This document shows, piece by piece, positions 1 through 23,279 of a DNA stretch of 23,470 bases. The notes below the pieces were generated by a model. That model did no database searches, had not been told where the DNA came from, and was given only the letters and a program-made list of their open reading frames with translations. Position numbers and translations under genes: made by a program. Every line of letters begins with the position of its first letter. Position 1 is the stretch's first letter. The stretch comes from a virus. Location: the IMG/VR virus record IMGVR_UViG_3300042451_001431, positions 1 through 23,470 of that record; one strand, 5' to 3'.

Positions 1-3000
1 AAGTACCGTCTGTACCACTTGTTCCTGATGTTCCACTAGTTCCTGAAGTTCCGTCCGTACCACTAGTTCCTGAAGTTCCGTCCGTACCACTTGTTCCTGA
101 AGTTCCGTCCGTACCCGAAGTACCACTTGTTCCTGAAGTTCCGTCCGTACCTGATGTTCCTGAAGTACCACTTGTTCCTGAAGTCCCACTAGTTCCTGAA
201 GTTCCTGAAGTACCACTTGTTCCTGAAGTCCCATCTGTTCCACTAGTTCCTGAAGTTCCGTCCGTACCTGATGTTCCTGAAGTACCCGATGTACCACTTG
301 TTCCTGAGGTACCATCTGTACCACTTGTTCCTGAAGTCCCATCCGTACCACTTGTTCCTGATGTTCCTGAAGTTCCCGACGTTCCACTAGTTCCTGAAGT
401 TCCGTCCGTACCTGATGTTCCTGAAGTACCCGATGTACCACTTGTTCCTGAGGTACCATCTGTACCACTTGTTCCTGATGTTCCCGACGTTCCACTTGTT
501 CCTGATGTTCCGTCCGTACCTGATGTTCCACTAGTTCCTGAAGTACCACTTGTTCCTGAAGTTCCGTCCGTACCTGATGTCCCACTAGTCCCTGAAGTTC
601 CGTCCGTACCTGATGTCCCACTAGTCCCTGAAGTACCACTTGTTCCTGATGTCCCACTAGTCCCTGAAGTACCACTTGTTCCTGAAGTTCCGTCCGTACC
701 TGATGTCCCACTAGTCCCTGAAGTACCTGATGTCCCACTAGTCCCTGAAGTACCATCTGTTCCTGAAGTACCACTTGTTCCTGAAGTACCCGATGTTCCA
801 TCGGTTCCACTAGTACCGTCCGTACCTGAAGTTCCACTAGTTCCATCTGTTCCTGATGTTCCACTAGTACCATCCGTTCCTGAAGTACCATCCGTTCCAC
901 TTGTTCCTGAAGTACCATCCGTTCCACTTGTTCCTGAAGTACCGTCTGTACCTGATGTTCCTGATGTTCCGTCTGTACCTGATGTTCCTGATGTTCCGTC
1001 TGTACCTGATGTTCCATCGGTTCCTGAAGTACCGTCTGTACCTGATGTTCCATCGGTTCCTGAAGTACCATCAACACCTGATAATCCTGACGTACCTGAT
1101 GTTCCTGAAGTACCATCCGTACCCGAGGTTCCATCGGTTCCTGAAGTACCGTCTGTACCTGATGTTCCTGATGTTCCGTCGGTACCTGATGTTCCACTAG
1201 TTCCATCTGTTCCTGAAGTACCATCCGTACCCGAGGTTCCACTAGTTCCATCTGTACCTGAAGTACCATCCGTACCCGAGGTTCCACTAGTACCATCTGT
1301 ACCTGAAGTACCATCCGTACCCGAGGTTCCACTAGTACCATCCGTACCCGAGGTTCCACTAGTACCATCCGTACCTGAAGTACCATCCGTTCCACTTGTT
1401 CCTGATGTTCCGTCGGTACCTGATGTTCCACTTGTTCCACTTGTTCCGTCTGTACCCGATGTTCCTGAAGTTCCGTCCGTTCCACTTGTTCCTGAGGTAC
1501 CATCCGTTCCACTCGTTCCTGAAGTTCCGTCTGTACCCGATGTTCCTGAAGTTCCACTAGTTCCATCTGTTCCTGATGTTCCACTAGTACCATCCGTACC
1601 TGAAGTACCATCCGTTCCACTAGTTCCTGATGTACCATCTGTTCCACTTGTCCCTGAGGTACCATCCGTTCCACTCGTTCCTGAAGTACCATCCGTTCCA
1701 CTCGTTCCTGAAGTACCATCCGTTCCACTAGTTCCTGAAGTACCATCCGTTCCACTAGTTCCTGATGTACCTGAAGTACCATCTGTACCTGAAGTACCAT
1801 CTGTACCACTAGTTCCTGATGTCCCTGAAACGCCATCAACACCTGAAGTTCCACTCGTACCTGAAGTACCATCTGTACCACTAGTTCCTGATGTTCCATC
1901 TGTTCCTGATGTTCCATCTGTTCCTGAAGTTCCATCTGTTCCTGAGGAACCATCGGTACCATTAACCCCAGATAAACCCGACGTACCACTTGAACCTGAA
2001 GTTCCATCTGTTCCTGAAGTTCCACTTGAACCTGAAGTACCACTTGTTCCTGAGGCACCGTTAATTCCTGAAGTACCACTAGTTCCTGAAGTACCACTAG
2101 TTCCTGATGTTCCTGAAACACCGTCAACACCTGAAGTACCGCTAGTTCCCGATGTTCCACTTGTACCTGAAGTTCCATCTGTCCCTGATGTTCCACTAGT
2201 ACCGTCCGTACCTGAAGTTCCACTAGTTCCATCTGTTCCTGATGTTCCACTAGTACCATCCGTACCTGAAGTACCATCCGTTCCACTCGTTCCTGAAGTA
2301 CCATCTGTTCCACTTGTCCCTGAAGTACCATCTGTTCCACTTGTCCCTGAGGTACCATCCGTTCCACTTGTTCCTGAAGTACCGTCTGTACCTGATGTTC
2401 CTGATGTTCCGTCTGTACCTGATGTTCCTGAAGTTCCGCTTGTACCATCTGTTCCACTTGTCCCTGAGGTACCATCCGTTCCACTTGTCCCTGAGGTACC
2501 ATCCGTTCCTGAAGTTCCGTCTGTTCCACTTGTACCATCCGTTCCACTCGTTCCTGAAGTACCATCCGTTCCACTCGTTCCTGAAGTACCATCCGTTCCA
2601 CTCGTTCCTGAAGTACCTGAAGCACCATCAATACCACTAGTACCTGATGTTCCGTCGGTACCGCTAGTTCCTGAAGTACCTGAAGCACCATCAATACCAC
2701 TAGTTCCTGAAGTTCCGTCTGTTCCTGAAGTACCATCCGTTCCACTTGTTCCTGAAGTTCCGCTTGTACCGTCTGTTCCTGAAGTTCCACTAGTACCATC
2801 CGTACCCGAGGTTCCACTAGTACCATCCGTTCCACTCGTTCCTGAAGTTCCGCTTGTACCGTCTGTTCCACTCGTTCCTGAAGTACCTGAAGCACCATCA
2901 ATACCACTAGTACCTGAAGTACCATCCGTTCCACTCGTTCCTGAAGTACCTGAAGCACCATCAATACCACTAGTACCTGATGTACCACCTGTACCACTAG

Positions 3001-3973
3001 TACCTGATGTTCCTGAAGCACCATCAATACCACTAGTACCTGAAGTTCCTCCAGTCCCTGAAGTTCCACTCGTTCCCGATGCTCCGTCAATACCACTAGT
3101 ACCTGATGTACCACTAGTCCCACCTGTAACATTAATTAAAATATTCCCTTCACCATAATCAATTACAGAGGCACCGGAAAAAGTCATTCCCGTAACATTT
3201 AGTGCGGTCACACCTGACGTTGAATCATAGACCGTTAATGTCCCCGTATTTGAAGTAATTCCTGTAATTTCAACAACACTTCCATCACTATTATTTAATT
3301 GTAGTGTTGAAGTACCTGCACTATATGTTCCTCCCGTAACCGAACCATTAAATCCTGAAATGGTAATAGTTCCGCCCGTATTATTATATAAATCTAATTC
3401 TTGAGTTCCTGAAAAATAAGTTCCACCCGTTATTTGAACGTCGCTACCATAAAATACTCTCCAACGAGAATCTAAACCACCCGTATACCCTTCAATTGTT
3501 GAAGCCGTCCAAGCGTTGATGAATGCAGCACCTTCAGGTGTGTCATCATAAACTTCATAACTACTACCCAAATCAACAATTGAACCAACCAATTCCGCGG
3601 CATCCCATAATGAGGTAAATCCCGTCATAGTATATTGATATACAGTATCATTCTCTTGAACGTGAACTTGCATACCAAGTCTTCTTCTACCCGAAGAAAT
3701 ACCATCATTATTTAGTGTTAGTATGTTTGGGGAGACGAATGGTGCGTTGTATTGAAAATTAATTGGGATAGAATTTCCTGAATACAAAACCGGCCCACCA
3801 TTAATTAAAATATCATTTGGTATAGTCCAATCCAAATCGGATAAATAAAATACTTCCATGTATCCACCAATACTATTAACAGAGAATACCGTACCTGTAT
3901 TAGACTCTCTAAGTACTGAATTAGGTGAACTTACTAAGATTGGTGATGTCGGATTTTTATATTGAAAACTCAT
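1..3973 (-). CDS. Giant collagen-like tail fibre protein (partial, 3' end outside window)
   Basis: The reading frame starts at ATG 3971-3973 (MSFQYKNP) and stays open to the left edge, giving 1324 complete codons and no stop. I followed the frame from the start and from the left edge and the two agree. Residues 1-284 are a non-repetitive region. Within it, residues about 181-238 hold two copies of a beta-rich unit of the form ITGGTY..GT..L.L.N..G....ITG, a style common in phage tail fibres. From residue 285 on the protein is almost pure Gly-X-Y, mainly Gly-Thr-Ser and Gly-Thr-Asp, for about 1040 residues. This resembles the collagen triple-helix repeat of phage and bacterial fibres, but without proline. 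The gene lies 22 bases after the 324-residue PT-linker gene and is last in the tail cluster. A host-contacting fibre is the likely role; receptor and tip domain are not visible. Confidence 0.85.
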   Translation of the reverse strand, partial: MSFQYKNPTSPILVSSPNSVLRESNTGTVFSVNSIGGYMEVFYLSDLDWTIPNDILINGGPVLYSGNSIPINFQYNAPFVSPNILTLNNDGISSGRRRLGMQVHVQENDTVYQYTMTGFTSLWDAAELVGSIVDLGSSYEVYDDTPEGAAFINAWTASTIEGYTGGLDSRWRVFYGSDVQITGGTYFSGTQELDLYNNTGGTITISGFNGSVTGGTYSAGTSTLQLNNSDGSVVEITGITSNTGTLTVYDSTSGVTALNVTGMTFSGASVIDYGEGNILINVTGGTSGTSGTSGIDGASGTSGTSGTGGTSGTSGIDGASGTSGTSGTGGTSGTSGIDGASGTSGTSGTDGTSGTSGIDGASGTSGTSGTDGTSGTSGTSGTDGTSGTSGTDGTSGTSGTDGTSGTSGTSGTDGTSGTDGTSGTSGIDGASGTSGTSGTDGTSGTSGIDGASGTSGTSGTDGTSGTSGTDGTSGTSGTDGTSGTDGTSGTDGTSGTSGTDGTSGTSGTDGTSGTSGTSGTDGTSGTSGTDGTSGTSGTDGTSGTSGTDGTSGTSGTDGTSGTSGTDGTSGTDGTSGTSGTDGTSGTSGTDGTSGTSGTDGTSGTSGTSGTSGTSGVDGVSGTSGTSGTSGTSGTSGINGASGTSGTSGSSGTSGTDGTSGSSGTSGLSGVNGTDGSSGTDGTSGTDGTSGTDGTSGTSGTDGTSGTSGTSGVDGVSGTSGTSGTDGTSGTDGTSGTSGTSGTDGTSGTSGTDGTSGTSGTDGTSGTSGTDGTSGTSGTDGTSGTSGTDGTSGTDGTSGTSGTDGTSGTSGTSGTDGTSGTSGTDGTSGTSGTDGTSGTSGTDGTSGTSGTSGTDGTSGTSGTDGTSGTDGTSGTSGTDGTSGTSGTDGTSGTDGTSGTSGTDGTSGTDGTSGTSGTDGTSGTDGTSGTSGTDGTSGTSGTDGTSGTDGTSGTDGTSGTSGTSGLSGVDGTSGTDGTSGTDGTSGTDGTSGTDGTSGTSGTDGTSGTSGTDGTSGTSGTDGTSGTSGTDGTSGTDGTSGTSGTDGTSGTSGTDGTSGTDGTSGTSGTSGTSGTDGTSGTSGTSGTSGTSGTSGTDGTSGTSGTSGTSGTSGTSGTSGTSGTSGTDGTSGTSGTSGTDGTSGTSGTSGTSGTSGTDGTSGTSGTSGTSGTSGTDGTSGTSGTSGTSGTSGTDGTSGTSGTSGTSGTSGTSGTDGTSGTSGTDGTSGTSGTSGTSGTSGTDGTSGTSGTDGTSGTSGTSGTSGTSGTSGTSGTSGTSGTDGTSGTSGTSGTDGTSGTSGTDGTSGTSGTDGTSGTSGTSGTSGTDGT
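561..632 (-). repeat. Perfect 36-bp tandem duplication inside the collagen array
   Basis: Bases 561-596 and 597-632 are identical 36-mers (four Gly-X-Y triplets). A third identical copy lies at 687-722, after a 54-nt interval. Identity at synonymous positions, where neighbouring units differ, marks these as recent copies. Confidence 0.9.
805..900 (-). repeat. Dispersed 96-bp block, copy 1 (partner at 2191-2286)
   Basis: Bases 805-900 match 2191-2286 over 96 positions with one mismatch (T versus A in the unit reading CCATCCGT[T/A]CC). The offset of 1386 nt is a multiple of 9, so the reading frame and triplet register are kept. Confidence 0.85.
1545..1620 (-). repeat. Dispersed 76-bp block, identical to 2211-2286
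   Basis: Bases 1545-1620 are identical to 2211-2286 over 76 nt. This is a third copy of most of the block found at 805-900 and 2191-2286. The offset of 666 nt is again a multiple of 9. Confidence 0.85.
2191..2286 (-). repeat. Dispersed 96-bp block, copy 3
   Basis: This is the partner of 805-900 (one mismatch). Its 76-nt portion at 2211-2286 is identical to 1545-1620. The three copies are spread across about 1.5 kb of the same gene. Confidence 0.85.
3260..3433 (-). repeat. Two beta-strand-rich units before the collagen array
   Basis: Residues about 181-207 and 212-238 of the fibre protein align as two related units. Shared positions are T-G-G-T-Y, then G-T, then alternating L residues, N, G and a closing I-[ST]-G. 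The spacing suggests stacked beta rungs that could nucleate trimerisation ahead of the collagen-like shaft. The structural role is inferred. Confidence 0.6.
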
Positions 3974-3995: not shown

Positions 3996-4970
3996 TTATA
4001 TTAATGTTCCTCCTTGCCAATATAACGGATTTCCACTATTAGTGATGTTTACTCCAGCCATAGGTTTAGTTGTGTATACCCTATAAGTTCCTGCAGGTAT
4101 GTTTGTTGAACCTGAATAATTAAACAATAATGACGAATAAGTTGTATTCATAGTAAAGTTTGTCCCTGGAGGATTTCCAATACCTTGTTTAATTGTCTGA
4201 TATATTTGTCCATTAGTCGCACCTGTTGAGACCATCCAAGTATACCAAGCAACTTCCGATGAAGGAACAGTTGTTGCCGGAACTTCAATAGTTTGGAATC
4301 TGTAAGCAACGATTGAGTTACCCCAAATATCACTACCTCCACTTGTGGTTGAGATAGGTGCCGTTAATATTGGTGGTTCAGAACTTCCCCATCCACTATA
4401 AGCAACATATGCGTTCATTTGAGCATCAAATATTGATTGATTTGGTGAAGGTGAATTAATATTAAATCCTCTAAACGCACTTCCTTGTGATACCATCCAT
4501 GTATTCAACGCACCTCTAATCGCAACATTATTTCTATCAATAAATAAGTAAGCTTGGAATCCGGCACTTGTAGGTGTAGGCGTTGGTGTTGAAGTTAATG
4601 TTGGAGTTATTGTTGGTGTAGGTGTTATTGTTGGTGTAGGAGTAGGGGTTTGAGGTGTTGGAGTAGGGGTAAGTGTTGGAGTAGGGGTAAGTGTTGGAGT
4701 AGGTGTAGAAGTAGGTGTAGGTGTTGGACTAGGTGCAACACATGGTAAAATTTGAAACGTTTCACAACCATTCGCATCAATCAATTTTAACATTATTTCA
4801 GGTGCCGTCAAAAATATTGGTGGAATTACTGAAGAATATGTTTGGATTGGTGGTACAGGCCCGGAATTAATAACATCAATCAATGTTTGATTATTTCCGT
4901 AAGCGTCCGCAACATAAACCTGAACCGGATATGCCGCACCATCAATATTAACTAACTCTATTTGAACCAT
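3996..4970 (-). CDS. Tail appendage protein with long Pro-Thr linker
   Basis: This 324-residue protein starts at ATG 4968-4970 (MVQIELVN). Residues 1-79 form a small N-terminal domain, residues about 80-135 are a Pro-Thr-rich linker, and residues about 136-324 form a C-terminal domain rich in aromatic, Ser, Thr and Gly residues. The C-terminal domain contains the motif TWMVSxG twice, at about 157-163 and 244-250, hinting at an internal duplication. No signal peptide or membrane helix is evident. PT linkers usually separate folded domains in extracellular or surface-exposed proteins. The gene lies between the SprB-repeat gene and the collagen-like fibre gene, so it probably belongs to the host-contacting fibre set. 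I do not recognise its family. The 53-nt leader upstream carries a TATTTATAG motif 3 nt before the start codon and no Shine-Dalgarno sequence. Confidence 0.85.
4566..4733 (-). repeat. Pro-Thr linker-coding degenerate hexamer repeat
   Basis: A degenerate tandem hexamer (coding strand ACTCCA, ACACCT and similar) encodes about 56 residues of Thr-Pro alternation, broken by Ser, Leu, Ile and Gln. The sequence predicts an extended, flexible or glycosylatable spacer. Repeats of this kind are prone to slippage-driven length change. Confidence 0.85.
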
Positions 4971-5023: not shown

Positions 5024-7903
5024 TTAAGTAAACGACACATCACAACATGAAGGTATTTGAGACGCACCAAAATTAATTAAACGATTATTTTTTTGCCATG
5101 TTATGGTGTATGGTGAAACATTATCAATTAAATAAACATCTCCACCTTCTGTGGTAAAATAAATATTATTATTATCAATAAACAACCCAAAAACGTCAAA
5201 GATTCCAACCAATTGGATATCCAATTCAACCGCACCCGTAGTATAATCTTGTTGGGTTATGTATTCAATGCTGGTATTAACATCATAATTAGTTGTAATT
5301 AATTTATTGTTTGTTGTTAAAACAATATCACCAGTTATCCGTCTATTAATATTAGGTAAATCAAATTTAGCCGAAAATACCGCAGAAATCCCTAATGTAA
5401 TCTCACCAATAGTATTATTTATTGATGAAATCAATGTTGTATTGTCTTTAGCACAAAGTCCCGGTCCTAAACCCGGCATAATATAAAATCTATTAGCCAC
5501 ACCACTAAAAGGATTTAATGTAATATCATACTCACGTATGTTTGATGAGTCATATAACCACAATTTAGTGTTAGTATGTGCAACATCATCAGAAGTTCCC
5601 GGTAAAGGAACATTAAAATATGGGTTAAGTAGTGTATAAGTATTTGTCAGATAAGTGTAAGAATACACATCAGCATTATCTGTATTAATTATAACTGAAC
5701 ATTGAGGAACTATTGGAGTGTTTGGTGTAGGAGTCGGAGTTGGTGTAGGAGTCGGAGACGGAGTAACAGGACAATCAGAACATAATATATCATATTCAAT
5801 AGTTAATTCAACAATAAGTTCTTGATTATTTAATGTGTCGTCCCAAGGAATTGTACTAACAATTATTTGGTTATTCTCTTCATTAATAGTTACATCACCA
5901 ACACCCGGTACCGTTAATAATAAACTTTTAAGTGTATTAAGATAGAGCGTATCTGTTGGTACCGAAGTCAATGTTGTTCCGGTGAAAAAACTTTGACTTG
6001 TTGTAAATCCGTTAGGGTTTACAAAAATATTAATACCAAATATCGATTCATTCAATCGACAATTTTCTCGGTTAGTCGTTAAATCAAGGAATCCTTCATA
6101 TAACATTTGATTTAACCCAAATTTAGATTGTGTTTGAATTATAAAATCCTCCCCACCCATAACATATGTCTGATAGGAAGTATAAAGTTTATCACAATTT
6201 ATTGTTGTACTTCTCTGTAAAACACACCCTAAACTATCTGTGATTGATAGTGTGTATGTGTCAGCACTTAAACCACTAACCTTAATATCTTGAGGATTAC
6301 CCGGTACATTAGTAGACCAATTAAATGTAAATGGTGGAGTACCTGATGTAATTAACGCAGTTAGTATCCCACCCGAACCACTTCCACACGACGTACTATA
6401 TAATGTAAAATCTAAAGGTACACTACTATTAACAAAAACATTACCCGTTTGAACACAACCCGCATCGTCTGTTACACTAATAGTATGTTGCCCTGAACTT
6501 ACATTACTAAATGTCACCGCAGATAAATTAGTGTTTAAAACATTTTGAATCCCATCTAAAGAAAAATCGTATGGACCAACACCACCTTCAGTTCTTGTAA
6601 CTAAAACCGAACCGTTATTTTGATTACAAGTGGTTCCTGTAGTATTTGCAGATATTGTAAAAGTATCTGTGGCAACTAATGTAACTTCCTCAATATAAGA
6701 ACAAGACGATGAATCTTGAACTACAACAGAATAAGTTCCTGAAGATAAATTTGAAAATATTACGACCGTTTGGGAACTAGTAATATTCGTGGTATTCCCA
6801 TTAGGATATATTAAAGTATAAGTATATGGTGTAACACCTCCAATTACTGAAACTTGGATAGACCCATCAGTACTTGAACATGTAGACCCGTTTGTATTAA
6901 CACTAACAGATGACATTCCTTGTGGAGATAATAACGAACTTCCAGCAATAAATGTACATAACGCGGCATCCGTAACTTGAAAATAATAATCGCCCGGCGA
7001 CAATCCACTTAACGTCCAAGAGGCACCATATTGTATCGCAACTTCACCTGTTGATGCAGAAAAATAATAAGGTATTGTTCCTCCGGTGACCTGTATGGTT
7101 AACGAGCCATCCGCCTGAAAACAAGTAGGTGGAATTGCGGTAAAAATCCCCAAACCAATTGGAGGTACATCAGTAACTGTTGTATTTCTAGTTTGAATAC
7201 ATCCTGAAGAATCAGTAATAGATACCGAATACTGTCCCGATGTTAACCCTGTTATTGTACTTCCTGTTGCACCATTAGACCAATTATAGATATATGGCGG
7301 TGTACCGGTAACTCCCGTGATAAAAATTTTACCAATCGGAGCACCACCACAAGAGGAATTTGGTACGGTGTATAACCCGAAATTTAAAACATCCGACTCT
7401 TCAATTATAAAATTTTGACTATACCCTGTACACCCACCAAAATCAACAACTTTCATATAATATGTTCCTGGTAATAAGTTATCAAAAACAACGTAATTGA
7501 TATTTGTGGTCGCTGACATAAGGTAAATGTCCTCTGAATCGTATAAATAAAAATTAGTTGTCGAATAATTGGAAGATGAACTTCCAGTCACCGAACCATT
7601 ACTTTGTGAACAAGTGGTACCTTGTACCGCTTCTATATTCACACAAACCCCAGAAGATACAATAAGATTAATATAATATTCTAAATTAGTTGGTTCTGTA
7701 CTATCATTAACCCTAACCACATATGTTCCAGCACTTAAAGAATCTCTAAAAGATGAAAGTACATCAGTATCAGTACCTAAATTAGGGTTAGACCATTGAA
7801 TCGTATAGTCAGGTGTTCCTCCTGTAAGTTCTATAAATACAGCACCTGAATTAGTATTTTGACAATCGCCTGTTATCGATAAATTATAAGAAAAATTTGG
7901 CAT
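5024..7903 (-). CDS. SprB-repeat tail adhesin with PT linker and propeller-like C-terminus
   Basis: I prefer the ATG at 7901-7903 (MPNFSYNL, 959 residues) to an upstream TTG at 7915, because it forms a TAATG overlap with the previous gene, as at two other junctions. Residues about 4-570 are seven modules of 70-90 residues. Each has a Cys/Asn/Gly-Ser start, a GGTxPYxYxW-like turn and a closing SGxYxVxVTDxxGC motif. This is the SprB repeat pattern known from Bacteroidota gliding adhesins. Residues about 570-712 form a separate domain with LCSDCP at its end. A short TPTPTP linker (about 713-733) follows. The last 225 residues contain recurring blocks such as KLWLYDSSNIREYDI and NNIYFTTEGGDVYLIDN that look like propeller blades. 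The likely role is a multi-domain tail fibre or adhesin binding the host surface. Family membership of the repeats is fairly sure; receptor binding is inferred. Confidence 0.85.
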   Translation of the reverse strand: MPNFSYNLSITGDCQNTNSGAVFIELTGGTPDYTIQWSNPNLGTDTDVLSSFRDSLSAGTYVVRVNDSTEPTNLEYYINLIVSSGVCVNIEAVQGTTCSQSNGSVTGSSSSNYSTTNFYLYDSEDIYLMSATTNINYVVFDNLLPGTYYMKVVDFGGCTGYSQNFIIEESDVLNFGLYTVPNSSCGGAPIGKIFITGVTGTPPYIYNWSNGATGSTITGLTSGQYSVSITDSSGCIQTRNTTVTDVPPIGLGIFTAIPPTCFQADGSLTIQVTGGTIPYYFSASTGEVAIQYGASWTLSGLSPGDYYFQVTDAALCTFIAGSSLLSPQGMSSVSVNTNGSTCSSTDGSIQVSVIGGVTPYTYTLIYPNGNTTNITSSQTVVIFSNLSSGTYSVVVQDSSSCSYIEEVTLVATDTFTISANTTGTTCNQNNGSVLVTRTEGGVGPYDFSLDGIQNVLNTNLSAVTFSNVSSGQHTISVTDDAGCVQTGNVFVNSSVPLDFTLYSTSCGSGSGGILTALITSGTPPFTFNWSTNVPGNPQDIKVSGLSADTYTLSITDSLGCVLQRSTTINCDKLYTSYQTYVMGGEDFIIQTQSKFGLNQMLYEGFLDLTTNRENCRLNESIFGINIFVNPNGFTTSQSFFTGTTLTSVPTDTLYLNTLKSLLLTVPGVGDVTINEENNQIIVSTIPWDDTLNNQELIVELTIEYDILCSDCPVTPSPTPTPTPTPTPNTPIVPQCSVIINTDNADVYSYTYLTNTYTLLNPYFNVPLPGTSDDVAHTNTKLWLYDSSNIREYDITLNPFSGVANRFYIMPGLGPGLCAKDNTTLISSINNTIGEITLGISAVFSAKFDLPNINRRITGDIVLTTNNKLITTNYDVNTSIEYITQQDYTTGAVELDIQLVGIFDVFGLFIDNNNIYFTTEGGDVYLIDNVSPYTITWQKNNRLINFGASQIPSCCDVSFT
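5705..5767 (-). repeat. Pro-Thr linker-coding repeat in the SprB-repeat gene
   Basis: About 21 codons encode Thr-Pro alternation between the LCSDCP domain and the propeller-like C-terminus. The coding DNA is a degenerate hexamer like the longer linker at 4566-4733 in the next gene, which suggests shared ancestry or exchange between the two linkers. Confidence 0.75.
6197..7894 (-). repeat. Seven SprB-like modules (protein-level repeat)
   Basis: The seven modules begin near residues 4, 92, 174, 248, 332, 416 and 496 of the 959-residue protein. Recurrent hallmarks are GCIQT, GCVQT and GCVLQ endings after VTD or ITD, and GT[PT]P[YF].[YF] turns. The DNA copies have diverged, unlike the collagen array, so this repeat is old and held by protein selection. 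Confidence 0.8.
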
Positions 7904-10887
7904 TATTGTTGACAATTAATATTAATGTTTATTCCCACATCTAAAGAAATTGAATTTGTTGTTATCGCATCCAAACAACTTAACCCGTTTATTGTTAATG
8001 TATTTCCCTCTAATATATATGAATATCCATAATTTATCAATTGTGGAAGATATTCAACTAATGATAATCTCCATTGTAGTGGTGTTGGGACATCTGTATA
8101 ACCATATCCAACATAAAATAACTCTTTAATTATTTGTTGTCCATTTATCTTTAAATCCACATACCAATCAGTCATCACAGAATTTTGAGAACATTGATTT
8201 AACGTTAAACCACTTTGACTTAACATATTATTAACTCTATTACTTAAAATACTATCAAAGTTTGAAACATTAATATCACCATTATTCCAAGGATAGATAT
8301 TAAATTCTGCAAATTCACTATTACAATTATAGTCAAATATCCCTGATATTATAAAACATGGGTCAACAGGTACGGGAATAAATTGACATCCTCTCTGTCG
8401 TCTATATACAAATTTCTGTTTATGAAAAATTGAATTCTCCAACCTAACACCTCCATTCCAAATGGTTGTTGCCGGTATCATCTGTTCAACTAATTTCGTC
8501 CAATAAGGGCCAATACCATTAACATAATCAATTAACTTTTGGTAAGTATATTTGTTATTTGGTATTCCAACGGTTTGTTCGGATTCAATATATTTCCAAA
8601 AAATGGATTGAAGGGTTGGATATCCTCCGGTTTTTCCGTCTGAAATATATTGTCTATTTCTTGTATTGACCATATTTTCCCAAAATGTTTGAGAAAATTC
8701 AAAAAATGTTTTTTTCTTTGGTTCGGGATTTATATATGTCGCATCAACACCTCCCGGAACCGGATAATTAACCGTTAATCCTGTTTCAGGTATTGGGTAG
8801 TCATATCTTCTTGATTCTTCCCACACATCATACACCAATCCTTGTGCAGGATTTAAGAACACATCAACATTTTTAACATTTAACACTAACTTCTCATTAT
8901 CAACAAAATAATAAGCATTATAATCTCCTTGGGTTGACACCCTAATTTTATCATCATCGGATAACCAAGACTTATTATTATCAACAACTTTTCTAAGTTT
9001 AAACCCTTCATTCATATATGGAAAATCCCTATAACGATTCAAATAGGTCTGACCATAAGTAAATGGTATTAATTGAGTTTGTATATTATAATTTTGTCCT
9101 GTATAAACCGCACCTGTTAATTGGACCTCATCAGGACTTCTATGTTGTGCCGTTGTTTCATACCAACCCGCACCGATTTGGAAAAAGAATGTTTCGGTAT
9201 TCCTTGGTGCTTTAGGGTAACCTTCAAAATCAATTGGATAACTACTCAAAGTAGTATTAACATTTTCATAAATGGCAGTTGATGTATATGCGGTAAATAA
9301 ATTACCTTTAAACTTATATGTTTGCCCCGGTAAATAAGTTGGGATTGTATTTACATAAGTTCCTCCCGAGATTTGAGCCCACTGTGTATTAAATTGGTCT
9401 AAATTGATTTTTTGGTCGGCCAAATAAATATGTTCATTATATTCAATTAATGAATCAGGTGCTCCAATCAATCTCAATAAAAATTCAATAGACCTTCGAG
9501 TTCCTTTAGATTTAAACAAATAAGACGCATTTAAGATTAAGTTTCTATAATAAGCGTAATTTAACTCCGTTGGTGTTAGCGCTCTCGCATAACCAGGGTA
9601 TGTTGGTGTTGAAGTATTCCCAAATACAGAACTTAAGAAATCTTCATTTGTTATTGGTGAGAAATTTGATGACCACCCTAAAGTTCTTGAAAGATTTACT
9701 AATAACTCAGATGGAATATCATTTGACGGATTATAATTAACTGAATTCATGTAAGCCAATCCATCAACAAATTGTTTAACTTGGTCAAAACTTCTACCGT
9801 AAATTTGAAATATCTTCTCTACTTTTTGCCCTAAAGTGTCAAATTCTTTAAGTGAATCGGTCACCAAAAACCTTGAAATCAAATTTGTCTTAAATGAATC
9901 AAGATTTACAGCAATTTCTTGAATCTCTTCTAAGTAGCTGTCAAATTGATATGATGATATGTCCAAATTCCAAGGCCCTCTTTTAGGCCAAGTAACTTGT
10001 CTATATTGAGTATAAGTTTGTCCGTATTCATTTTGTTGTGGTACTTGAAATACCGCAGTATATTCAGGTCTAACCAACCTATTTAATAAAAATTTTTCAA
10101 CTTCATCAAAATCTTCTTGAAATACTTTATCAGATATTAAATCATTAGGTCTAATTTGGTATTCACTATTCGTAATAGTCGTGTCTTTACCAAATGGAGA
10201 ACCGGAAACATAAAATTCCAAATATCCTGTTGATAATGTCTCTGAAGGAGTGAAACCAATCACTTGATATATATTGTCATCAATACTAATACAATAATCT
10301 AAATAGGTGTTATATAAATTTCTATATTTTGAAGTTTCAATTTCCCTTACCGATAAGTTGTTAGTTGAATTTACCGAATAATCAATATCAAAAGGGTTGT
10401 CAAGTCTATCAACATTAACCCTAAAATAAGTCTCATCTTCTTCTTTGTCGTAAAATATATCATAAGCCGTATTCCCACTAATAAATTCGGTATTAATAAA
10501 CCTAACATCCAACGACGCCGGAAAATAATGAATAATTTTTGTAATAGACACACTAAACCTCTTGGATAATGACCCATACATTGAAAAATTAAGAACTTGT
10601 GAAATATCATAATTTGGATAAACCCTAAATTGAGTCGCAAGAATTGCTCTACTCTCTTCCAAATTATTAATGCCCATCATATCTAACGATATTGGTTCCG
10701 AAAATGCACCAACATTGAAAGTCCTATTGACTTTCTCCACAACTCCGGTTGTGAATTCAAAATTACCTTGAGTCAAACCTCCTCCTTCAACAGTTTGTAA
10801 ACCTACAATGTTGTCCGAGAAAGTTCCCGCACCGTTGCCTGGGCGTGGGGGGTAAAAAAATTTCGTGTTCTTAGTTTCTACTGCCAT
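7903..10887 (-). CDS. Large tail/baseplate protein with a P2 gpI-like segment
   Basis: This 994-residue protein starts at ATG 10885-10887 (MAVETKNT), with a TAATG overlap on the previous gene. Residues about 393-478 run from LLVNLSRTLGWSS to YLFKSKGTRRSIEFLLRLIG. That layout (LP..LA..LG, then a helix, then KGT..ai..ll...G) is like the core of P2 tail protein I (Phage_tail_P2_I), which joins the baseplate to the fibres. The rest is not recognised. Residues 840-994 hold a Cys-containing C-terminal domain ending NININCQQ. Its length far exceeds gpI (about 180 residues), so it would be a gpI-like core embedded in a larger protein. Position after gp25/W and gp6/J genes and directly before fibre genes fits a link between baseplate and fibres. 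The gpI relation is inferred from motif and gene order. Confidence 0.7.
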   Translation of the reverse strand: MAVETKNTKFFYPPRPGNGAGTFSDNIVGLQTVEGGGLTQGNFEFTTGVVEKVNRTFNVGAFSEPISLDMMGINNLEESRAILATQFRVYPNYDISQVLNFSMYGSLSKRFSVSITKIIHYFPASLDVRFINTEFISGNTAYDIFYDKEEDETYFRVNVDRLDNPFDIDYSVNSTNNLSVREIETSKYRNLYNTYLDYCISIDDNIYQVIGFTPSETLSTGYLEFYVSGSPFGKDTTITNSEYQIRPNDLISDKVFQEDFDEVEKFLLNRLVRPEYTAVFQVPQQNEYGQTYTQYRQVTWPKRGPWNLDISSYQFDSYLEEIQEIAVNLDSFKTNLISRFLVTDSLKEFDTLGQKVEKIFQIYGRSFDQVKQFVDGLAYMNSVNYNPSNDIPSELLVNLSRTLGWSSNFSPITNEDFLSSVFGNTSTPTYPGYARALTPTELNYAYYRNLILNASYLFKSKGTRRSIEFLLRLIGAPDSLIEYNEHIYLADQKINLDQFNTQWAQISGGTYVNTIPTYLPGQTYKFKGNLFTAYTSTAIYENVNTTLSSYPIDFEGYPKAPRNTETFFFQIGAGWYETTAQHRSPDEVQLTGAVYTGQNYNIQTQLIPFTYGQTYLNRYRDFPYMNEGFKLRKVVDNNKSWLSDDDKIRVSTQGDYNAYYFVDNEKLVLNVKNVDVFLNPAQGLVYDVWEESRRYDYPIPETGLTVNYPVPGGVDATYINPEPKKKTFFEFSQTFWENMVNTRNRQYISDGKTGGYPTLQSIFWKYIESEQTVGIPNNKYTYQKLIDYVNGIGPYWTKLVEQMIPATTIWNGGVRLENSIFHKQKFVYRRQRGCQFIPVPVDPCFIISGIFDYNCNSEFAEFNIYPWNNGDINVSNFDSILSNRVNNMLSQSGLTLNQCSQNSVMTDWYVDLKINGQQIIKELFYVGYGYTDVPTPLQWRLSLVEYLPQLINYGYSYILEGNTLTINGLSCLDAITTNSISLDVGINININCQQ

Positions 10888-13772: not shown

Positions 13773-15477
13773 CAATTAAAGGTTTTATAGGGAATTCAAT
13801 ACCATTTAAGTTTGAATTATAATTTATTCCATCAGGGATTAATCTAAACTGCACATCTTTAAACGGATAATGAGAAAAATTCAAAAAAGGATAATCAACT
13901 CCTCTATCCAAATTGTCTATAAATCCATAAGTATATAAATCTCTCCATCTAAATTCTTGGTCGGAACTTGAATAATACGAATATGACGGAATACCTTCAA
14001 TTATATTAATGTCGCCAGTTTCTATATAATCGGAAAATACTCTAATCGTCATTGGGGTATGTGGTTGGTAATAAAAACCTGGTGCGTTCAATCTATCAAA
14101 TTCTGATGTTGTTGCAAACACATCTTGATTATATTTTAATTTATGAAAATAACCCGATATTACTCGTTCTATTTGTTCATAATTGTTCCATTCACAAAAA
14201 TCTCCATCCATAGTGTCACCGGACATTAAATCCCGATTATAATAAAAAGTTTTAGTGACGCCACTTGTTAAGGTATAATTTGATGTCGGGATATTAGTAT
14301 TAGAATTCACATTATTATCATCCCACCATGAATTAACATTTTGAGTTAAATTAAATTTCCACCCTTGTTTTAAGGCAACATTACCACCTAATGATGGTTT
14401 ATTGAAATAACCGGTATATCCCTTATTTATAATCGTTAAAAACAACTCACTAACAGGTCTTTTTTGATTATCAAGAACACCATTTAAATCAAAATCATAT
14501 TTAAATGTTATGTTATAACTATTACTACTTGTTTTTTGTGAAATTCTTGACTTGTCATCTGGTGTTAATACATCGTATTCAAACTTTTTTTCTTCATTAA
14601 ACACATTTTTTTCAAATCCATTTTTAGTAATAATACATTCATCAACATTCGTTAATATTTTATGTTGTCTAACATAATATTCCGATGTCGTTTCTAATAT
14701 GTTTTCAGGGTTAATGACCCTTCTAAATGTCCCTCTTCTTCTATTTGTAAAAGTAGTTCCTGTGTATCCTACATCGTAAATATTAAAAATGTACTCCTTA
14801 CTATCAAATAAACCATTACCTAACGAATAGACCTGAAATAAATCAATATTGTTATAATTAAATGGGGGATTTTTAAATTTTATTTTAACGTATTCCCCAA
14901 CCGATAACCCATGTGGTACAATACATTGAAACTGAATTATTGGATTCCCATTTTGGAATGTCTTTCTAATAATATATGGAATTCCTTCGGACGCAGTCCA
15001 ATTGTCCTCACTATTATTTAGTTCATAAAATAATTTTTCGTCATAATTATTCCGATAAACATAACTTAAATAATATGTCCAATTATATGTATAAGCACTT
15101 TTAGCTTGATATTGTATATGTTGGTCGCTCACATTAGGACGATATAAGTCAAATTCATAATATTGAGGATAGCCAAACCATTTTCCACTAGCCACTGATT
15201 TTTCCGCTTCAACATAATATAAATTATTTTTAAATGGTAAGTATTCTGTAGTTCCCGTATAAGTGTTAGCGTAAATATAGTTCACCTTAAATGTTGGTCT
15301 AAAAATCGTACAAGATTGTCTTTCATCATCATATATTTGAGCAAGACTAATACTTTGACTTCTATCATATTCAGTAATTTGTTGACTTTGTTCCTCCAAA
15401 GATAACGAAATTTCTTGGTCAATAAAAGGTGCAGATTTATATTGTAAACTACTTGGGATTATGGTATACTTATTCAT
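13759..15477 (-). CDS. Unrecognised tail-cluster protein (572 residues)
   Basis: The preferred start is ATG 15475-15477 (MNKYTIIP), which overlaps the upstream stop by 8 nt (ATGAATAA). A TTG directly before it is less likely. The sequence is very rich in Tyr, Asn and Phe and predicts a mostly beta protein. Residues about 188-199 read PHGLSVGEYVKI, a turn-and-strand pattern of a kind I associate with beta-sandwich domains of phage tail proteins. The C-terminus ends LIDGCE. No enzyme motif, coiled coil or membrane segment is visible. By position, between the 1800-residue protein and the small tail proteins, it is likely a structural baseplate or tail-fibre-anchor component. I cannot name a family. 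Confidence 0.75.
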   Translation of the reverse strand: MNKYTIIPSSLQYKSAPFIDQEISLSLEEQSQQITEYDRSQSISLAQIYDDERQSCTIFRPTFKVNYIYANTYTGTTEYLPFKNNLYYVEAEKSVASGKWFGYPQYYEFDLYRPNVSDQHIQYQAKSAYTYNWTYYLSYVYRNNYDEKLFYELNNSEDNWTASEGIPYIIRKTFQNGNPIIQFQCIVPHGLSVGEYVKIKFKNPPFNYNNIDLFQVYSLGNGLFDSKEYIFNIYDVGYTGTTFTNRRRGTFRRVINPENILETTSEYYVRQHKILTNVDECIITKNGFEKNVFNEEKKFEYDVLTPDDKSRISQKTSSNSYNITFKYDFDLNGVLDNQKRPVSELFLTIINKGYTGYFNKPSLGGNVALKQGWKFNLTQNVNSWWDDNNVNSNTNIPTSNYTLTSGVTKTFYYNRDLMSGDTMDGDFCEWNNYEQIERVISGYFHKLKYNQDVFATTSEFDRLNAPGFYYQPHTPMTIRVFSDYIETGDINIIEGIPSYSYYSSSDQEFRWRDLYTYGFIDNLDRGVDYPFLNFSHYPFKDVQFRLIPDGINYNSNLNGIEFPIKPLIDGCE

Positions 15478-18400
15478 CAACAGAATATTTTGTTTTAAAT
15501 TTATCTAACGCACTTTCACCTTTAATTATCCCAAAATAAAAATGGTTTGGAGCGCTAACTAAAAAGTTTTTCACTTCACTATTTTTATAAACATTTGAAT
15601 ACTTTCCATCGCTATCCACACCAAATAAATATCCACGTAGATAAATGTCTCCAAGTCCTATCGCGTCACTATCCGTAAAATAACTTGGGGTTGAGGTAGA
15701 ATTATCGATTCTACGACTTAATGATTGGTAATTTTGACTAAAAATATCACTCTCATTTGTTACCCAATTATTTTTTTCGCTACCAAATATGGTGGTACCC
15801 CCATTCAAACTCCATTTATAAAATGGTACTTCCTGTGATTTAATCCCATATTGATATGTTATTGCATTCACATTATTTGAAGGTCTGAAGTTTATAATCC
15901 CCGGACTCAAATAATCTTTATTTTGTAAATCAAATGTTGTGGATGAAAAGAAAATACCTATCGTGGGATTATCGGGGTATCCAACAACATTAACTGGAGA
16001 TGGGTTTTCATTTGTATTGTAAAATTGAGGTGAGAATGGAATAACACCAAATTCGGAATTGATTGACATAGCTTGTGCTAAATCCCCATCAATTCTAAGC
16101 ACATTACGATTTCCTCGAGAGAATAACTCATTTAAACTATTATTAAATCCTGATAAAATTTTTGTTAAAAATTTACTAGTTGTGATTCGACTAATGACAA
16201 ATAAATTAACCAAGTCAGAAGTATCCGAATAACTTGATGGGTTTAAACTTTTCATAATATACCCTTTGGACGATGGTTCAAATAAAATTTCTTGATAGAT
16301 GTCGTCTTTCATTCCCAAGTTAACTATTGTAGTTGGGAATAGTAAATTCCGTCTATTAACCGACTGTTCTAAATCCCCCGTACCTCTTCCAATAAATTTG
16401 GTTCCATTATAAGGTGAACTCCTATAGTAGAATGTATTAGTTTTTTTATCGAAATAAACAAGTTGTTTTGCAAAAATTGAACGTGCTTCCCCTAATAAAT
16501 TAAATGAAGTATCAACTTGAAGTGGGAACATATACAACGAACCATTAACCCAATTATTTGTGAAGGATTGTGCCAACACTCCTCGACATAACCCATAATT
16601 AAATCTAAATCTATATCCCCATTCAGCAAAAGTCCCTAAATCTTTAGTTAAATCAGTTAATGGTTTTCTAACCATAACATAACACCCACTTTCAACGGGG
16701 TCTGTTTCTCGGCATCCATCTTTCACTCTAAAGTTAGTACCATCACCCTCATAACATTTAAGACCCACCATTTGTTCACAAGTATTTAAACTAGTGAATA
16801 CGTTAATCGCTGCATATTGACCTCCAATGTCTGCGGTTGGTTGTTGGGCCCCAGTTGAGAATCCTGGTGATGCGTACAAATTCAAATTTCCATCTATAGG
16901 GTACATTGCAAACCCTAAATTTTGTTGTAATAATCCAGTACTACCACTATAATTAAAATCATTATCCAAATAATCCGATGATGGTAATCTATCGGTTCTC
17001 ATAATATTTAATTTTTTATTTGCAACTAATAAACTTTGAGTTGGTCCGGTTGTTGCGGTAAATTGTGGATATAATATAGGACTATAGTATAAATTAACTG
17101 GTGCATTATTTGCGATATCACTATTATAGTTGAAACTACCAATATTATTAATAGTCCAAGGTGCCCTATACATTAATGCTGCTCCAGATAAATCATCATT
17201 AGGTCTATATTGTCGTAAATAATTCCAATTGGTTGTTGGTGGATTATTAATATCAATATAATAAGGTCCATTATAATTGAATACGTTACTGGTAATACCA
17301 CCACTTTTCTTAACCGTTAATGAGTTAGGAGTTTGATTAGTGTTAAGATTACTAACCGAATAAATTCCGGTGTCATTTGAGATGGTAGTAACCCCATAAG
17401 TATATGTGACTCCGTTTCCTTGATTTATAGTTCCATTTGCATAGAAAGAAAATGAAAGTTTAGCAATGTTAATAGATAAATCGTTATTATTAAACCACGT
17501 TTTATCTAACGCACCATAGTACCCAACATTTGATGTTGTATATGATGAATATGAATATCCGGGATTTGAAGATGTTACAGGAAATAATGAACTTGGAATA
17601 CCCGGTTCAAAGAAAACTGATGGATAAAAAATTTCATCAGAATTTTTATGATTTTGTACCGATATTGTCGAATTTTGAGGAAGAGATTGAATTGGTACGT
17701 TAAGTCGGGTTGAGGCCGTAAATATAAAATTAGGGTCATTCTCTGAATTCCCAAATAAATTTCCAATCTGATATCTATTAATGTATTTTGGAGAATATGG
17801 GTCTACGCCTCTTTGTAATATTAAAATAGTTTTACTTGATAGGTCGTCTAGTGTTACTAAAGGATTTTCATTAAAAGGGGGTGGTACGGGTACGGCACCA
17901 AAAGGTGTTACGACACCATTTTGGTTATCTCCGAATCTCCAACCGTTTGTAGGATTATCTTGTAGATAATACCCAATTTGATTCCTACTTATAATATTCC
18001 AAAAACTTTCACCCGCCGATGATGATGTTACATCAGGGTTAGTACTAATCACCGGTTTACCATTAGCATCGGGAATAACATTTATTGTTACTGCGGTTAG
18101 TACTTGACAATATTCTATATCTAATGGAAACTCATATCTTTTAAACGCAATCCCTTTGACTATTTTTTTATCGTCAATAATTGCAGTCCCCCCAATCGAA
18201 CTAATATTAATACCATTTTCATTTTTAATTGTAAGTTGTCCTATTGGAGTTTCAGGAATTTTATATCTTATACCACTACAATCCAAATAAGTTGTGGTTC
18301 CAGATTCAATAACATCAACCGTAATATCATAATAACATTCTGATTCAACTTCAGGTAAAAAATATTGAGTTGTGTTGGATAGAAGAGGATTACTAGGGTG

Positions 18401-20872: not shown

Positions 20873-20964
20873 CAAACTACTTTATTTAATAAATACTTAT
20901 TATAGGATTTTTAAAATAATCCCATTATTAAAATTATAGAATAAAGTCAAATAAAGTGAACTTG
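20873..20964 (-). promoter_or_regulatory. 92-nt AT-rich gap with weak hairpin and -10-like box
   Basis: This is the longest gap between two full genes. About 35 nt after the J-like stop, AATAAT-GGG-ATTATT (20915-20929) could form a 6-bp all-A/T hairpin followed by a T-run, a weak terminator at best. TATAATA at 20898-20904 lies 26 nt before the next ATG and could be a -10 box, but no convincing -35 element sits 17 nt upstream and no Bacteroidota TAnnTTTG box is present. Any internal promoter here is tentative. Confidence 0.2.
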
Positions 20965-22803
20965 TTATGAGAAAGTTATTGATTGGAAATTTTTAACAGA
21001 TATTCTAATGTCTCTGTTAGGGTATCTCACTTGATATACTTGTGATGGTTGTGCAAATATGGTATCATCCACCGGACCAATTTGTTTTGTTTCAAGATTT
21101 GAATATTCCATAGATGTTTCAGCTGATGAATATTGACCACCAACTTCGTTAAAAATGTCAATTCCCGCAACAGTTAAAACCCCATTCGTATTTTGGACAA
21201 TACTCCTTAATTCCGAAAGATACACATTTTGACCTAAATTCCTTGTTTGAGGGTTGAAATATGCCGAAACTTTATCAACAACACTCGCAATTACTTGTCC
21301 CGAGTTTTGTGCGGAATCTAAAACAATTGAAATGTCCATACTTAAATCGATAACTTCCGCACTTAATATGGAAATGTAATCGTTCATCATTCTATAATTT
21401 GATAAATAATTTGCAATGTTTTGTCTTAAAGTATTTGAAACAATATTTGTTAATTTACCTGAAGTATCGTAGGATAATATCTGTATTAAAATTTTATTAT
21501 CATTTTCAGTTATTGAAACTTTTGCTGGTGCTCCAAATTGAGCCGGCATATTTCTAATTAAAGATTCATAATCTTGAACCGTAACCGCTCTTTTTTGTGC
21601 CGAAAAATTAAATGAAACATAATTTCTAATCTCTTCTAAAGAAGGTATTCCCGCTCCACCAATAGCCGCAGTCACATTATTACAACGTAAAGAATTCACA
21701 ACAGAGGTGTTTGTAACCTCTGACGGTCCATTAACAAAAAAGGAAACCGTACCAATCTGATTAATTACATTGGTACCTAAATTAGTTGCTAATCCTCCAC
21801 CAATTCTATATTGAATAAATAAGGTAGAATTCGGTGTTAAAGTTGAACCTAATGAAAAGTTATTTGAGTATTTTTGTAATTCTAATGTAGTCCCTAAAGT
21901 CGTAAACTGATTTAATTGGTCTTGGGCCGTATTGGTTCCTCCACCAAAAGTCATTTTCTTAAATCCTTCAGGTGTATATTCGGTTATAAATCTATTTTGT
22001 GTTTGAATATATCTACCTACTTTAATTCCCGGTTGGTCGGAAACTTTTGTTGGGTCTTCAACAAACACTCTATCTTCAGCTAAGGCATCCACTTCATACC
22101 ATCTATTCTCTAACCCTAAAAATTCCGCTGTCGTTGGGACATTCGTATAATTAGTTCCATTTTTCAATAAAACACTTGTAATCCCTAAAACATTTTTTTC
22201 AGGTAAAAACAATTCAAAAAATGGTCTAACGTCATTCGCGCCAATCACCCTTTTGAATATTTTTGTAATTCCATTAACAACTATTTCTCTTTTTGTTATA
22301 GTATAATTTACCAAAACATTATTCGCATTAAAGTTTGGTATTTTTAATCTATTTGGAAATCCTTGAGCGTTATATGGTGACGCAAAATCAATATCATAAA
22401 CATTTTCAAATACAATACCCGCACCAACGACTTGAGAACCTCTTGACAATGTTCCAAGATATCTCTCATCTTCTTTATCACCAAACGCAGGAACTGTAAT
22501 AGAAAAATCAACCAATGAAACTGAAGGTCTTTGTCCCGGTAATTTCAAACCGTAAGTTCGTGCTATGTTGTAAATTGACGACCTTTGTTGGGCATATTGT
22601 AATACAGTCTCTTGAATACTCCTATCTATATTATAGTGTAGATTATCCGCAACTGCCGCATTCAAATCAAGAAATACCGAAAAAACTGAAGCGTCATTAA
22701 AATCCTGAATCAAATCAGGATAATATGTTCGAGTATAATTTAATAAGTCTGTCCTAATTGATTGATAATCTCTACTACTGTACGATATTCTATTGTTTGC
22801 CAT
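20965..22803 (-). CDS. Baseplate wedge protein, gp6 / baseplate J family
   Basis: This 612-residue protein starts at ATG 22801-22803 (MANNRISY). The N-terminus (SRDYQSIRTDLLNYTRTYYP, then DFNDASVFSVFLDLNAAVADNLHYNIDR) is typical of T4 gp6 and P2 J-like proteins. In the second half, TVQDYESLIRNMP, ILSAEVIDLSMDISIVLD and YLSELRSIVQNTNGV match the conserved J-type core. T4 gp6 is about 660 residues, so the length fits. In contractile tails, gp6 dimers form the inner ring of baseplate wedges and bind gp25 and gp7. The gene begins 5 nt after the gp25-like stop, so the two are co-transcribed in the standard order. Identification is firm. Confidence 0.92.
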   Translation of the reverse strand: MANNRISYSSRDYQSIRTDLLNYTRTYYPDLIQDFNDASVFSVFLDLNAAVADNLHYNIDRSIQETVLQYAQQRSSIYNIARTYGLKLPGQRPSVSLVDFSITVPAFGDKEDERYLGTLSRGSQVVGAGIVFENVYDIDFASPYNAQGFPNRLKIPNFNANNVLVNYTITKREIVVNGITKIFKRVIGANDVRPFFELFLPEKNVLGITSVLLKNGTNYTNVPTTAEFLGLENRWYEVDALAEDRVFVEDPTKVSDQPGIKVGRYIQTQNRFITEYTPEGFKKMTFGGGTNTAQDQLNQFTTLGTTLELQKYSNNFSLGSTLTPNSTLFIQYRIGGGLATNLGTNVINQIGTVSFFVNGPSEVTNTSVVNSLRCNNVTAAIGGAGIPSLEEIRNYVSFNFSAQKRAVTVQDYESLIRNMPAQFGAPAKVSITENDNKILIQILSYDTSGKLTNIVSNTLRQNIANYLSNYRMMNDYISILSAEVIDLSMDISIVLDSAQNSGQVIASVVDKVSAYFNPQTRNLGQNVYLSELRSIVQNTNGVLTVAGIDIFNEVGGQYSSAETSMEYSNLETKQIGPVDDTIFAQPSQVYQVRYPNRDIRISVKNFQSITFS

Positions 22804-22808
22804 ATTAT

Positions 22809-23279
22809 TTAAATATTAATGATAACAAAATCACTCCCTCCAAATGTAGAACCATTAGTGGAATAATCTATTCTTATTTTTGCAGTATATTCTGCGGTTC
22901 CTTTACCCGGAAATCTATATATTGACGATTCACTAGTTCCTACAAAATTTTGTCCCGTTGCAATATCCACCTCTTCTTGTGGGTCAGCAGGAGTTATCGA
23001 TAAACTATTAACTAATAAATTTGGCATAAAAGTCTCAATCGCGTCTCTTATGTCAGATTCAATTGCGTTAAATGTTAACCCATCAAAAGGTTCGAATAAA
23101 AATTCATACAATCTTGTACCAAATTGAGGTAAATAATATCTTGACCCCTTTCTAGTTAATAATAAATGAATTAAATCAGCTTTTATTTCATCTGATTCAA
23201 ATTCGGTTAATTGAAGGTAATCTCCCCTTAAAGAATCTCTAAAAGGAAAATTAATACCATAAGTAATTCCATCTGCCAT
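22809..23279 (-). CDS. Baseplate wedge protein, gp25 / GPW family
   Basis: This 156-residue protein starts at ATG 23277-23279 (MADGITYG). The central segment LLLTRKGSRYYLPQFGTRLYEFLFEP is the GPW_gp25 signature: a short helix, a Gly-Ser/Glu-Arg turn, P.FG, and the FEP that lies at the sheath-contact EPR position in T4 gp25 (here EPF, so the Arg is not kept). T4 gp25 is 132 residues; this one has a longer C-terminal extension. The protein nucleates sheath assembly on the baseplate in phages and related contractile machines. It is the first gene after a hairpin terminator, so it likely opens a transcription unit that continues through the tail genes. It has no Shine-Dalgarno sequence; TATTTATAG lies 2 nt before the ATG. 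Confidence 0.92.
   Translation of the reverse strand: MADGITYGINFPFRDSLRGDYLQLTEFESDEIKADLIHLLLTRKGSRYYLPQFGTRLYEFLFEPFDGLTFNAIESDIRDAIETFMPNLLVNSLSITPADPQEEVDIATGQNFVGTSESSIYRFPGKGTAEYTAKIRIDYSTNGSTFGGSDFVIINI

Follow-up and report, generated by a model that had tools for sequence, protein, structure and literature searches.

A probable tail-fibre gene with a long, proline-free collagen-like shaft near a T4-like baseplate module

Collagen-shafted phage fibres and the place of the gene

The side-tail fibres EPclA and EPclB of Escherichia coli O157:H7 prophages, as described in PMC3368898, consist of an N-terminal domain, a collagen stalk whose length varies by triplets, and a C-terminal trimerisation domain; EPclA is trimeric, and its stalk of 111 residues is ca. 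30 nm long by EM. Putative receptor-binding proteins with triple collagen repeats are also reported from the structural operon of pelagimyophage, a myovirus likewise known from metagenomes (PMC7029224). Phage fibres with a collagen shaft are already known, and the gene described here is a variant without imino acid, with charges of one sign only and of great length. Its relatives have the same three-part order, and their stalks also vary by triplets. In contrast, the EPclA and EPclB stalks in PMC3368898 have 63–190 residues, Pro at 48% of the X positions, and charges of both signs, while the present array has at least 1040 residues and no Pro, Lys, or Arg. The EPclP fibre domains PF08400, PF06820, and PF03406 had no match in the visible part of the fibre, where only PF01391 matched.

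The gene lies in the 23,470 bases of IMG/VR record IMGVR_UViG_3300042451_001431 (hereafter the window, meaning this whole stretch), and the contig end truncates its array. All genes that we took as real are on the minus strand, beginning with a baseplate wedge protein gp25 (22809–23279) and a baseplate wedge protein of the Baseplate_J/T4 gp6 type (20965–22803), both assigned by family matches, and ending with the fibre gene. Several large proteins without clear family match lie between the gp6/Baseplate_J gene and the SprB-repeat gene. One of them, of 1801 aa (15470–20875), has only a weak CarboxypepD_reg match, and its first half contains, by eye, an extended hydrophobic region that looks membrane-like; another, of 994 aa (7903–10887), has no family match and is assigned as a baseplate/tail protein by position only. 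They are followed by a putative virion adhesin with SprB repeats (PF13573; 5024–7915), a Pro-Thr-linker protein directly upstream of the fibre gene (3996–4970), and the tail-fibre-type gene itself (2–3973), which starts at 3973 and encodes 1324 aa with no stop before the edge. The fibre gene is therefore located in a tail/baseplate module, with gp25 and Baseplate_J in the same window. The earlier note had called it a fibre gene, and our analysis supports a fibre-type gene.

The N-terminal domain of the fibre (residues 1–284; 3122–3973, minus strand) is common to 26 viral-contig loci at 47–100% identity. No relative turned up among the phages collection's 50,697 records, and none was confirmed in genome contigs. 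To these 26 loci we added L037, found via its tip, and a stretch of contig G049, giving 28 relative loci for the comparison of neighbourhoods. The 994-aa, SprB-repeat, Pro-Thr-linker, and N-domain proteins were each matched in 27/28 loci; the missing matches were the 994-aa protein in L037, which begins after that gene, the SprB-repeat and Pro-Thr-linker proteins in L034, and the N-domain in G049. The G049 stretch has the same neighbours, a different fibre N-terminus, and 370 triplets. The Pro-Thr-linker protein, matched in part, stood directly upstream of the fibre gene in 20/28 loci and elsewhere upstream in seven, and was absent from one. In the relatives, this comparison covered the N-domain and the three upstream neighbours.

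The gp6-like protein was 26–28% identical to proteins of six phage records, namely an uncultured phage, four Flavobacterium phage records, and a Microcystis phage. SprB repeats are known from the gliding adhesins of Bacteroidota. Together with the Pro-Thr linkers beside the fibre, they are a weak hint that the host is perhaps a member of Bacteroidota. The virion-type SprB-repeat protein and the Pro-Thr linkers adjoining the fibre gene are also further Thr-rich candidates for glycosylation.

The array, its frame, and its relatives

Gly occupies every third position from residue 285 (base 3121) to the window edge, giving a collagen-like array of 346 complete Gly-X-Y triplets and 1040 residues (2–3121, minus strand). 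GTS accounts for 232 triplets, GTD for 87, and others for 27. The X position is Thr in 321/346 triplets (93%) and never Asp; the Y position is Ser in 246/346 and Asp in 96/346 (28%) and never Thr. The array contains no Pro, Lys, Arg, or Glu, and its charges are negative only, with 96 Asp per chain. The earlier note had reported about 346 uninterrupted triplets still repeating at the edge, with Thr at almost every X, Ser or Asp at Y, and no Pro; our recount agreed with it in each respect and found no stop codon.

Over the 346 nine-base units, positions one and two of the Gly codon were invariant (GGN in 346/346), and the third base had an entropy of 1.31 bits (GGA 175, GGT 147, GGG 23, and GGC 1). 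At the X codon, the entropy was 1.75 bits for the third base vs 0.34 and 0.26 bits for the first two. Since the GG of Gly is constant while silent third bases vary freely, the reading frame of the array is maintained at the level of the protein. The array is also open in two other long frames, which were rejected as by-products of the repeat, and a plus-strand open frame at 3–3158, encoding Val-Pro-X (elastin-like by eye), was rejected as a mirror of the array and not a gene.

The array matched PF01391 with E = 2e-141 (460 bits vs a cut-off of 27.2). The fibre protein also matched PHROG tail-fibre families, and this match is driven by the repeat. Sequence matches of the array in PDB track the Gly periodicity, and there is Pro in the three that were aligned; a query of 499 array residues had no match below 1e-20. 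NCBIfam NF038329 (Scl2/SclB streptococcal LPXTG adhesin) scored 549 bits vs a cut-off of 325, with its best stretch within the Gly-X-Y array. The fibre starts with MSFQYKNP, in which we saw no signal peptide by eye, and the C-terminus, where LPXTG would stand, is cut off in the window. The complete relatives end in a phage-type tip. Any long Gly-X-Y array runs the risk of being misnamed by NF038329 in this way.

The longest array lacked Pro, Lys, and Arg in 26/26 N-domain loci, and Glu occurred in it in only two (11 residues in L025 and one in L030). Of these relatives, 23/26 end inside the array, and its repetitive length may explain why the contigs of this family are cut at the fibre gene. 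Four genes are complete: L023 (1656 aa; 407 triplets), L029 (2361 aa; runs of 506, 44, and 20 triplets with knob domains between), L030 (2040 aa; runs of 476 and 24 triplets), and L037 (2796 aa; runs of 191 and 569 triplets). In each, the N-domain is followed by 407–760 triplets in total, with at most two small knob domains, and by a C-terminal domain related to those of the others. With a rise of 0.286 nm per residue, the shaft would be ca. 297 nm long in the visible part of the window and 652 nm in L037 with both arrays. The value of ca. 300 nm given in the earlier note for the visible part is borne out at 0.286–0.29 nm per residue, and the complete relatives are longer. Directly behind the 2361-aa fibre gene is a second giant fibre-type gene (L209, positions 1–5998 of contig G008, which is the L029 contig, minus strand), with the N-terminus MANEFVARKG and ca. 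630 Gly-X-Y triplets, open at the contig edge. Open frames of 3352–3994 aa with PF01391 matches in four viral records outside the family (G040, G044, G046, and G050) are still longer candidates.

Near-identical phages differ in the length of the array. L009 showed two base differences from the window in 10 kb upstream, and the first 2799 bases of its fibre gene, of which 1947 are array, were identical; the next 1099 bases held one 18-base indel and one mismatch. The clean difference was 81 bases between L014 and L029 and 36 bases between L028 and L030, the latter pair with an additional aligned fragment at the end of the L028 contig. These three clean indels are all multiples of nine. L016 vs L029 showed many gaps, four of which were not multiples of nine, so that the simple triplet picture does not fit this pair. 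L012, L013, L015, and L017 matched L029 without mismatch over 1890–4028 bases from the gene start, in data sets that may not be independent. Judged from these alignments, the shaft appears to grow and shrink by whole triplets, with the L016/L029 pair as a misfit.

To see how widespread such arrays are, we looked for GTSGTSGTSGT in viral contigs with a DNA pattern and read 80 loci among the matches listed. At least 83 ORFs contain the pattern, and at least 65 of them have at least 20 triplets; the other 18 listed ORFs are shorter, and some are chance frames. Among the 65 listed ORFs with at least 20 triplets, 46 had no Pro, 35 had no Lys or Arg, and 27 had neither. Proline-free Gly-X-Y shafts thus appear, from these ORFs, to be common in collections of viral sequence, and the present phage is no isolated case. 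Within the titles and abstract openings listed from the open-licence literature, we found no description of a proline-free phage shaft, which does not prove that none exists.

The pattern biases this set to Thr at X and Ser at Y and makes no demand for Asp. In the 65 listed ORFs, Asp occurred 727 times at Y vs 28 at X and Asn 573 vs 80, Glu was opposite to Asp (35 at Y vs 87 at X), and Ile/Val/Leu occurred 729 times at X vs 96 at Y. For viral collagens except EPclPs, Ghosh et al. (PMC3368898) list Asp/Glu at 35% of X and 8% of Y positions and Thr at 3% of X and 9% of Y positions. The code of the window, with Thr at X and Asp at Y, is the reverse of the viral and Gram-positive collagen preferences in Table 4 of PMC3368898.

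Stability of the shaft and candidate glycosylation genes

Collagen is usually stabilised by Pro/hydroxyproline or by pairs of opposite charge. Both are absent from the visible array (0 Pro, 0 Lys, and 0 Arg). The stability puzzle is therefore real, with no imino acid and only negative charges. The earlier note had reasoned that either the fold or its stabilisation is unusual; the 27/65 listed ORFs without Pro or Lys/Arg show that the case is not unique. Salt bridges, which the note had proposed as one stabiliser, are ruled out within the visible array for want of Lys or Arg, and likewise in the longest array of 26/26 relatives.

Asp was never found at neighbouring Y positions in the window (0 pairs vs 26.4 expected; 0/2000 shuffles as low). 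We applied this test to 15 arrays. In 11/11 arrays with at least 27 Asp, two of which (L028 and L030) are one phage, neighbouring Asp were rarer than by chance (0–2 pairs; at most 4/2000 shuffles as low); the other four arrays have at most three Asp and are uninformative. The spacing fits charge repulsion, as treated in PMC7824840, or could reflect copying of longer units.

Triplets with Pro do occur beside such sequence. Among the 112 uninterrupted runs that reach 20 triplets or more, three or more Pro triplets are present in nine, and six of these nine also contain a Pro-free stretch of 65–352 triplets. That Pro triplets share runs with Pro-free stretches is the best, if indirect, evidence of a collagen fold for the latter. 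In G007, a 3' piece contains, in one frame, a visible Pro-free array of 15 triplets, a two-residue break, a Pro-rich array, and an S74 chaperone. Both ends of this 295-kb contig lie in collagen arrays of the same strand (L207 and L208), which is no more than suggestive of a circular genome; we make no claim that these pieces belong to a single gene.

The Thr-rich collagen-like shafts of the Bacillus spore protein BclA and of vent-worm cuticle collagen are said to be held by O-glycosylation. Both of these carry Thr at Y, and BclA also has Pro at X, whereas the present array has Thr at X and no Pro. We searched for glycosyltransferase genes in the records of the fibre family. PF00535 was above cut-off in 8/10 large relative records and in 14/14 control genomes, and PF00534 in 2/10 of the large relative records, so that these two families say little. 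PF11397 (GlcNAc transferase), whose known members act on Thr or hydroxyproline of proteins, was found in 11/28 fibre-family records and 0/14 control genomes. It was present in all 11 family records of at least 64.8 kb and in none of the 17 shorter ones; since six of these records represent a single phage or close to it, the eleven amount to about six separate cases, plus G049. The gene is on the fibre strand at contig positions 63–79 kb, with the fibre at the contig start, and the window's own records (23 and 36 kb) end short of this place.

PF01755 (family 25), also the family of procollagen galactosyltransferases, was found in 11/29 records (G049 included). It lay within 2 kb of PF11397 in nine records, i.e. 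eight of the 11 large relatives and G049; of the others, it was ca. 3 kb away in G007, elsewhere in G001, and absent from G006. In G023, a gene that combines a PF01391 array with a C-terminal half that is not collagenous stands immediately before the PF11397 gene, and PF01755 comes next. The fibre-type 3' piece of G007 is succeeded by genes for a 2OG-Fe oxygenase and family-2 transferases, and one 620-aa frame holds both an oxygenase and a glycosyltransferase domain. The 2OG-Fe oxygenase PF13640 was found in 3/10 records and would be without its usual substrate, because the arrays hold no Pro or Lys.

Among 26 other records, which may be fragments, PF11397 was absent from 25, of which 17 have PF01391; the one exception was G049, whose neighbours are like those of the fibre family. 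The named phages with a related transferase, XacN1, CM1, and RAS14, gave a PF01391 match in 0/3. PF11397 is therefore a trait of the lineage and not a general partner of collagen shafts. PF01755 was found in 5/26 other records (G049 among them), all within the 18 with collagen (5/18 vs 0/8 without; Fisher p ≈ 0.13, calculated by hand). Genes of a family with Pro-Thr linkers are directly upstream of PF11397 in G001, G005, and G006. Given its position at 63–79 kb, away from the fibre, PF11397 may act on other virion proteins with Pro-Thr linkers. Glycosylation of the shaft at Thr/Ser, which the earlier note had raised, is a plausible hypothesis judged from gene content: the PF11397 and PF01755 genes in the lineage give it circumstantial support, and the link is missing outside the lineage.

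Terminal domains and the reading of the array

The N-domain had no significant family match, and its AlphaFold2 model was poor (mean pLDDT of 45.5). In its last third, we noticed by eye two copies of the motif ITGGTY..LxL..ITGF. The two C-terminal domains of relatives that were scanned had no significant Pfam or PHROG match. A search with three tips of relatives gave 27 loci, of which three lie on contigs found before. Gly-X-Y runs of at least eight triplets occurred in 11 of the 27 tip-bearing ORFs and were lacking in 16, one of the latter (L043) being cut at its 5' end. The presence of the same tip on ORFs without such runs indicates that it is a separate module capping several kinds of shaft. 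In L050 and L046, the same tip caps a shaft that is also Pro-free but differently coded: most triplets are Gly-Glu/Gln/Thr-Thr, which places Thr at Y.

AlphaFold2 predicted a beta-sandwich with a pLDDT of 87 from 19 tips of relatives. In VIA-align, the C-terminal domain of T4 gp9 (PDB 1qex) ranked first (Z of 12.6 over 103 residues, 2.1 Å), followed by a Klebsiella phage baseplate-region chain (10.6), Acinetobacter tailspikes (10.0 and 8.9), and a Klebsiella fibre (8.8). C1q heads had Z of about 4, below the telling level of the tool, and folds missing from the list carry no weight as evidence. BclA has a trimeric beta-sandwich head. The gp9 domain resembles the tip model in fold at 7% identity, and a shared fold is not a shared function. 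Foldseek against PDB gave phage tailspikes at best (E = 1.3e-3) and T4 gp9 at E = 0.012; against predicted viral proteins, there were 105 matches at E ≤ 0.001, and the top-ranking ones included cyanophage tail fibres. The 3' fibre piece of G007 ends in an endosialidase-type (S74) chaperone (PF13884), and the complete fibre L086 has the same ending by eye, which is another sign of trimeric fibres.

From these results, the most likely product of the gene is a collagen-like tail fibre that is trimeric, sits near a T4-like baseplate, and measures at least ca. 300 nm, with ca. 650 nm in one relative. We give a probability of roughly 0.63 to a phage with a T4-like baseplate whose fibre has a long homotrimeric collagen-type shaft and a gp9-type tip. 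The N-domain would attach the fibre to the virion at or near the baseplate, and the Gly-Thr-Ser/Asp array would form a long, thin homotrimeric shaft. The C-terminus, beyond the window, is most likely a gp9-type beta-sandwich as in the complete relatives; it would form the fibre tip, trimerise the chains, start triple-helix folding from the C-terminal side, and perhaps bind the receptor. Changes by whole triplets would alter the reach without breaking the fold. The shaft might be stabilised by phage enzymes that O-glycosylate Thr/Ser, by a cool habitat, or by end domains that clamp it. Points against this reading are the all-negative charge, the reversed X/Y code, the tip beyond the window, and the irregular L016/L029 pair. 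A more specific form of it is tentative: a class of reversed-code collagen fibres of 300–650 nm, without imino acid or opposite charge pairs, with Thr/Ser at X and with Asp at Y but rarely in neighbouring triplets, whose shafts would be densely O-glycosylated at Thr/Ser by phage PF11397 and PF01755 transferases.

It is less likely, yet the most serious alternative, that the array is a flexible, disordered polar tether between baseplate and tip, like a Gly-Ser-Thr linker. Such a chain, rich in Gly, Ser, and Thr, with small polar residues, no Pro, and like charges only, could be disordered; the neighbouring proteins use Pro-Thr linkers, and slippage of nine-base units would preserve the period at no cost. 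A tether, however, needs no Gly at every third place, yet Gly is kept in 346/346 under free wobble change and long Gly-X-Y runs are kept in the relatives. Nor does it account for the avoidance by Asp of X and of neighbouring Y positions, or for the six cases in which Pro triplets share uninterrupted runs with long Pro-free stretches. These same Pro-containing runs speak against an improbable second alternative, a three-residue period in a non-canonical fold such as a polyglycine-II-like bundle or Asp-Gly/Asn-Gly/Ser-Gly turns. The reversed positions in the 65 listed ORFs (Asp and Asn at Y; Ile/Val/Leu mostly at X) would suit it, as would the frequent Asx-Gly pairs that arise because every Y precedes Gly; a single-chain bundle, however, needs turns or loops, and none interrupt runs of 346 to ca. 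630 triplets. Very improbably, the array is an assembly artefact or a non-coding repeat open by chance, as the break of 23/26 relatives in the array, where assemblers break, and the unclean L016/L029 alignment might suggest, against which stand identical arrays in separate contigs (L012, L013, L015, and L017 with L029; L009 with the window) of data sets that may not be independent, complete genes with the tip in frame, and the GG of Gly that never changes.

The collagen-shaft reading predicts tail fibres longer than most phage tails, with a reach that changes by whole triplets. The largest examples have 760 triplets per chain in a complete gene with two arrays and ca. 630 in one open gene. Gly-X-Y shafts without Pro or opposite charges are a natural set for a direct test of the rule of collagen stability, and proline-free shafts would offer simple, low-complexity sequences for very long protein fibres.
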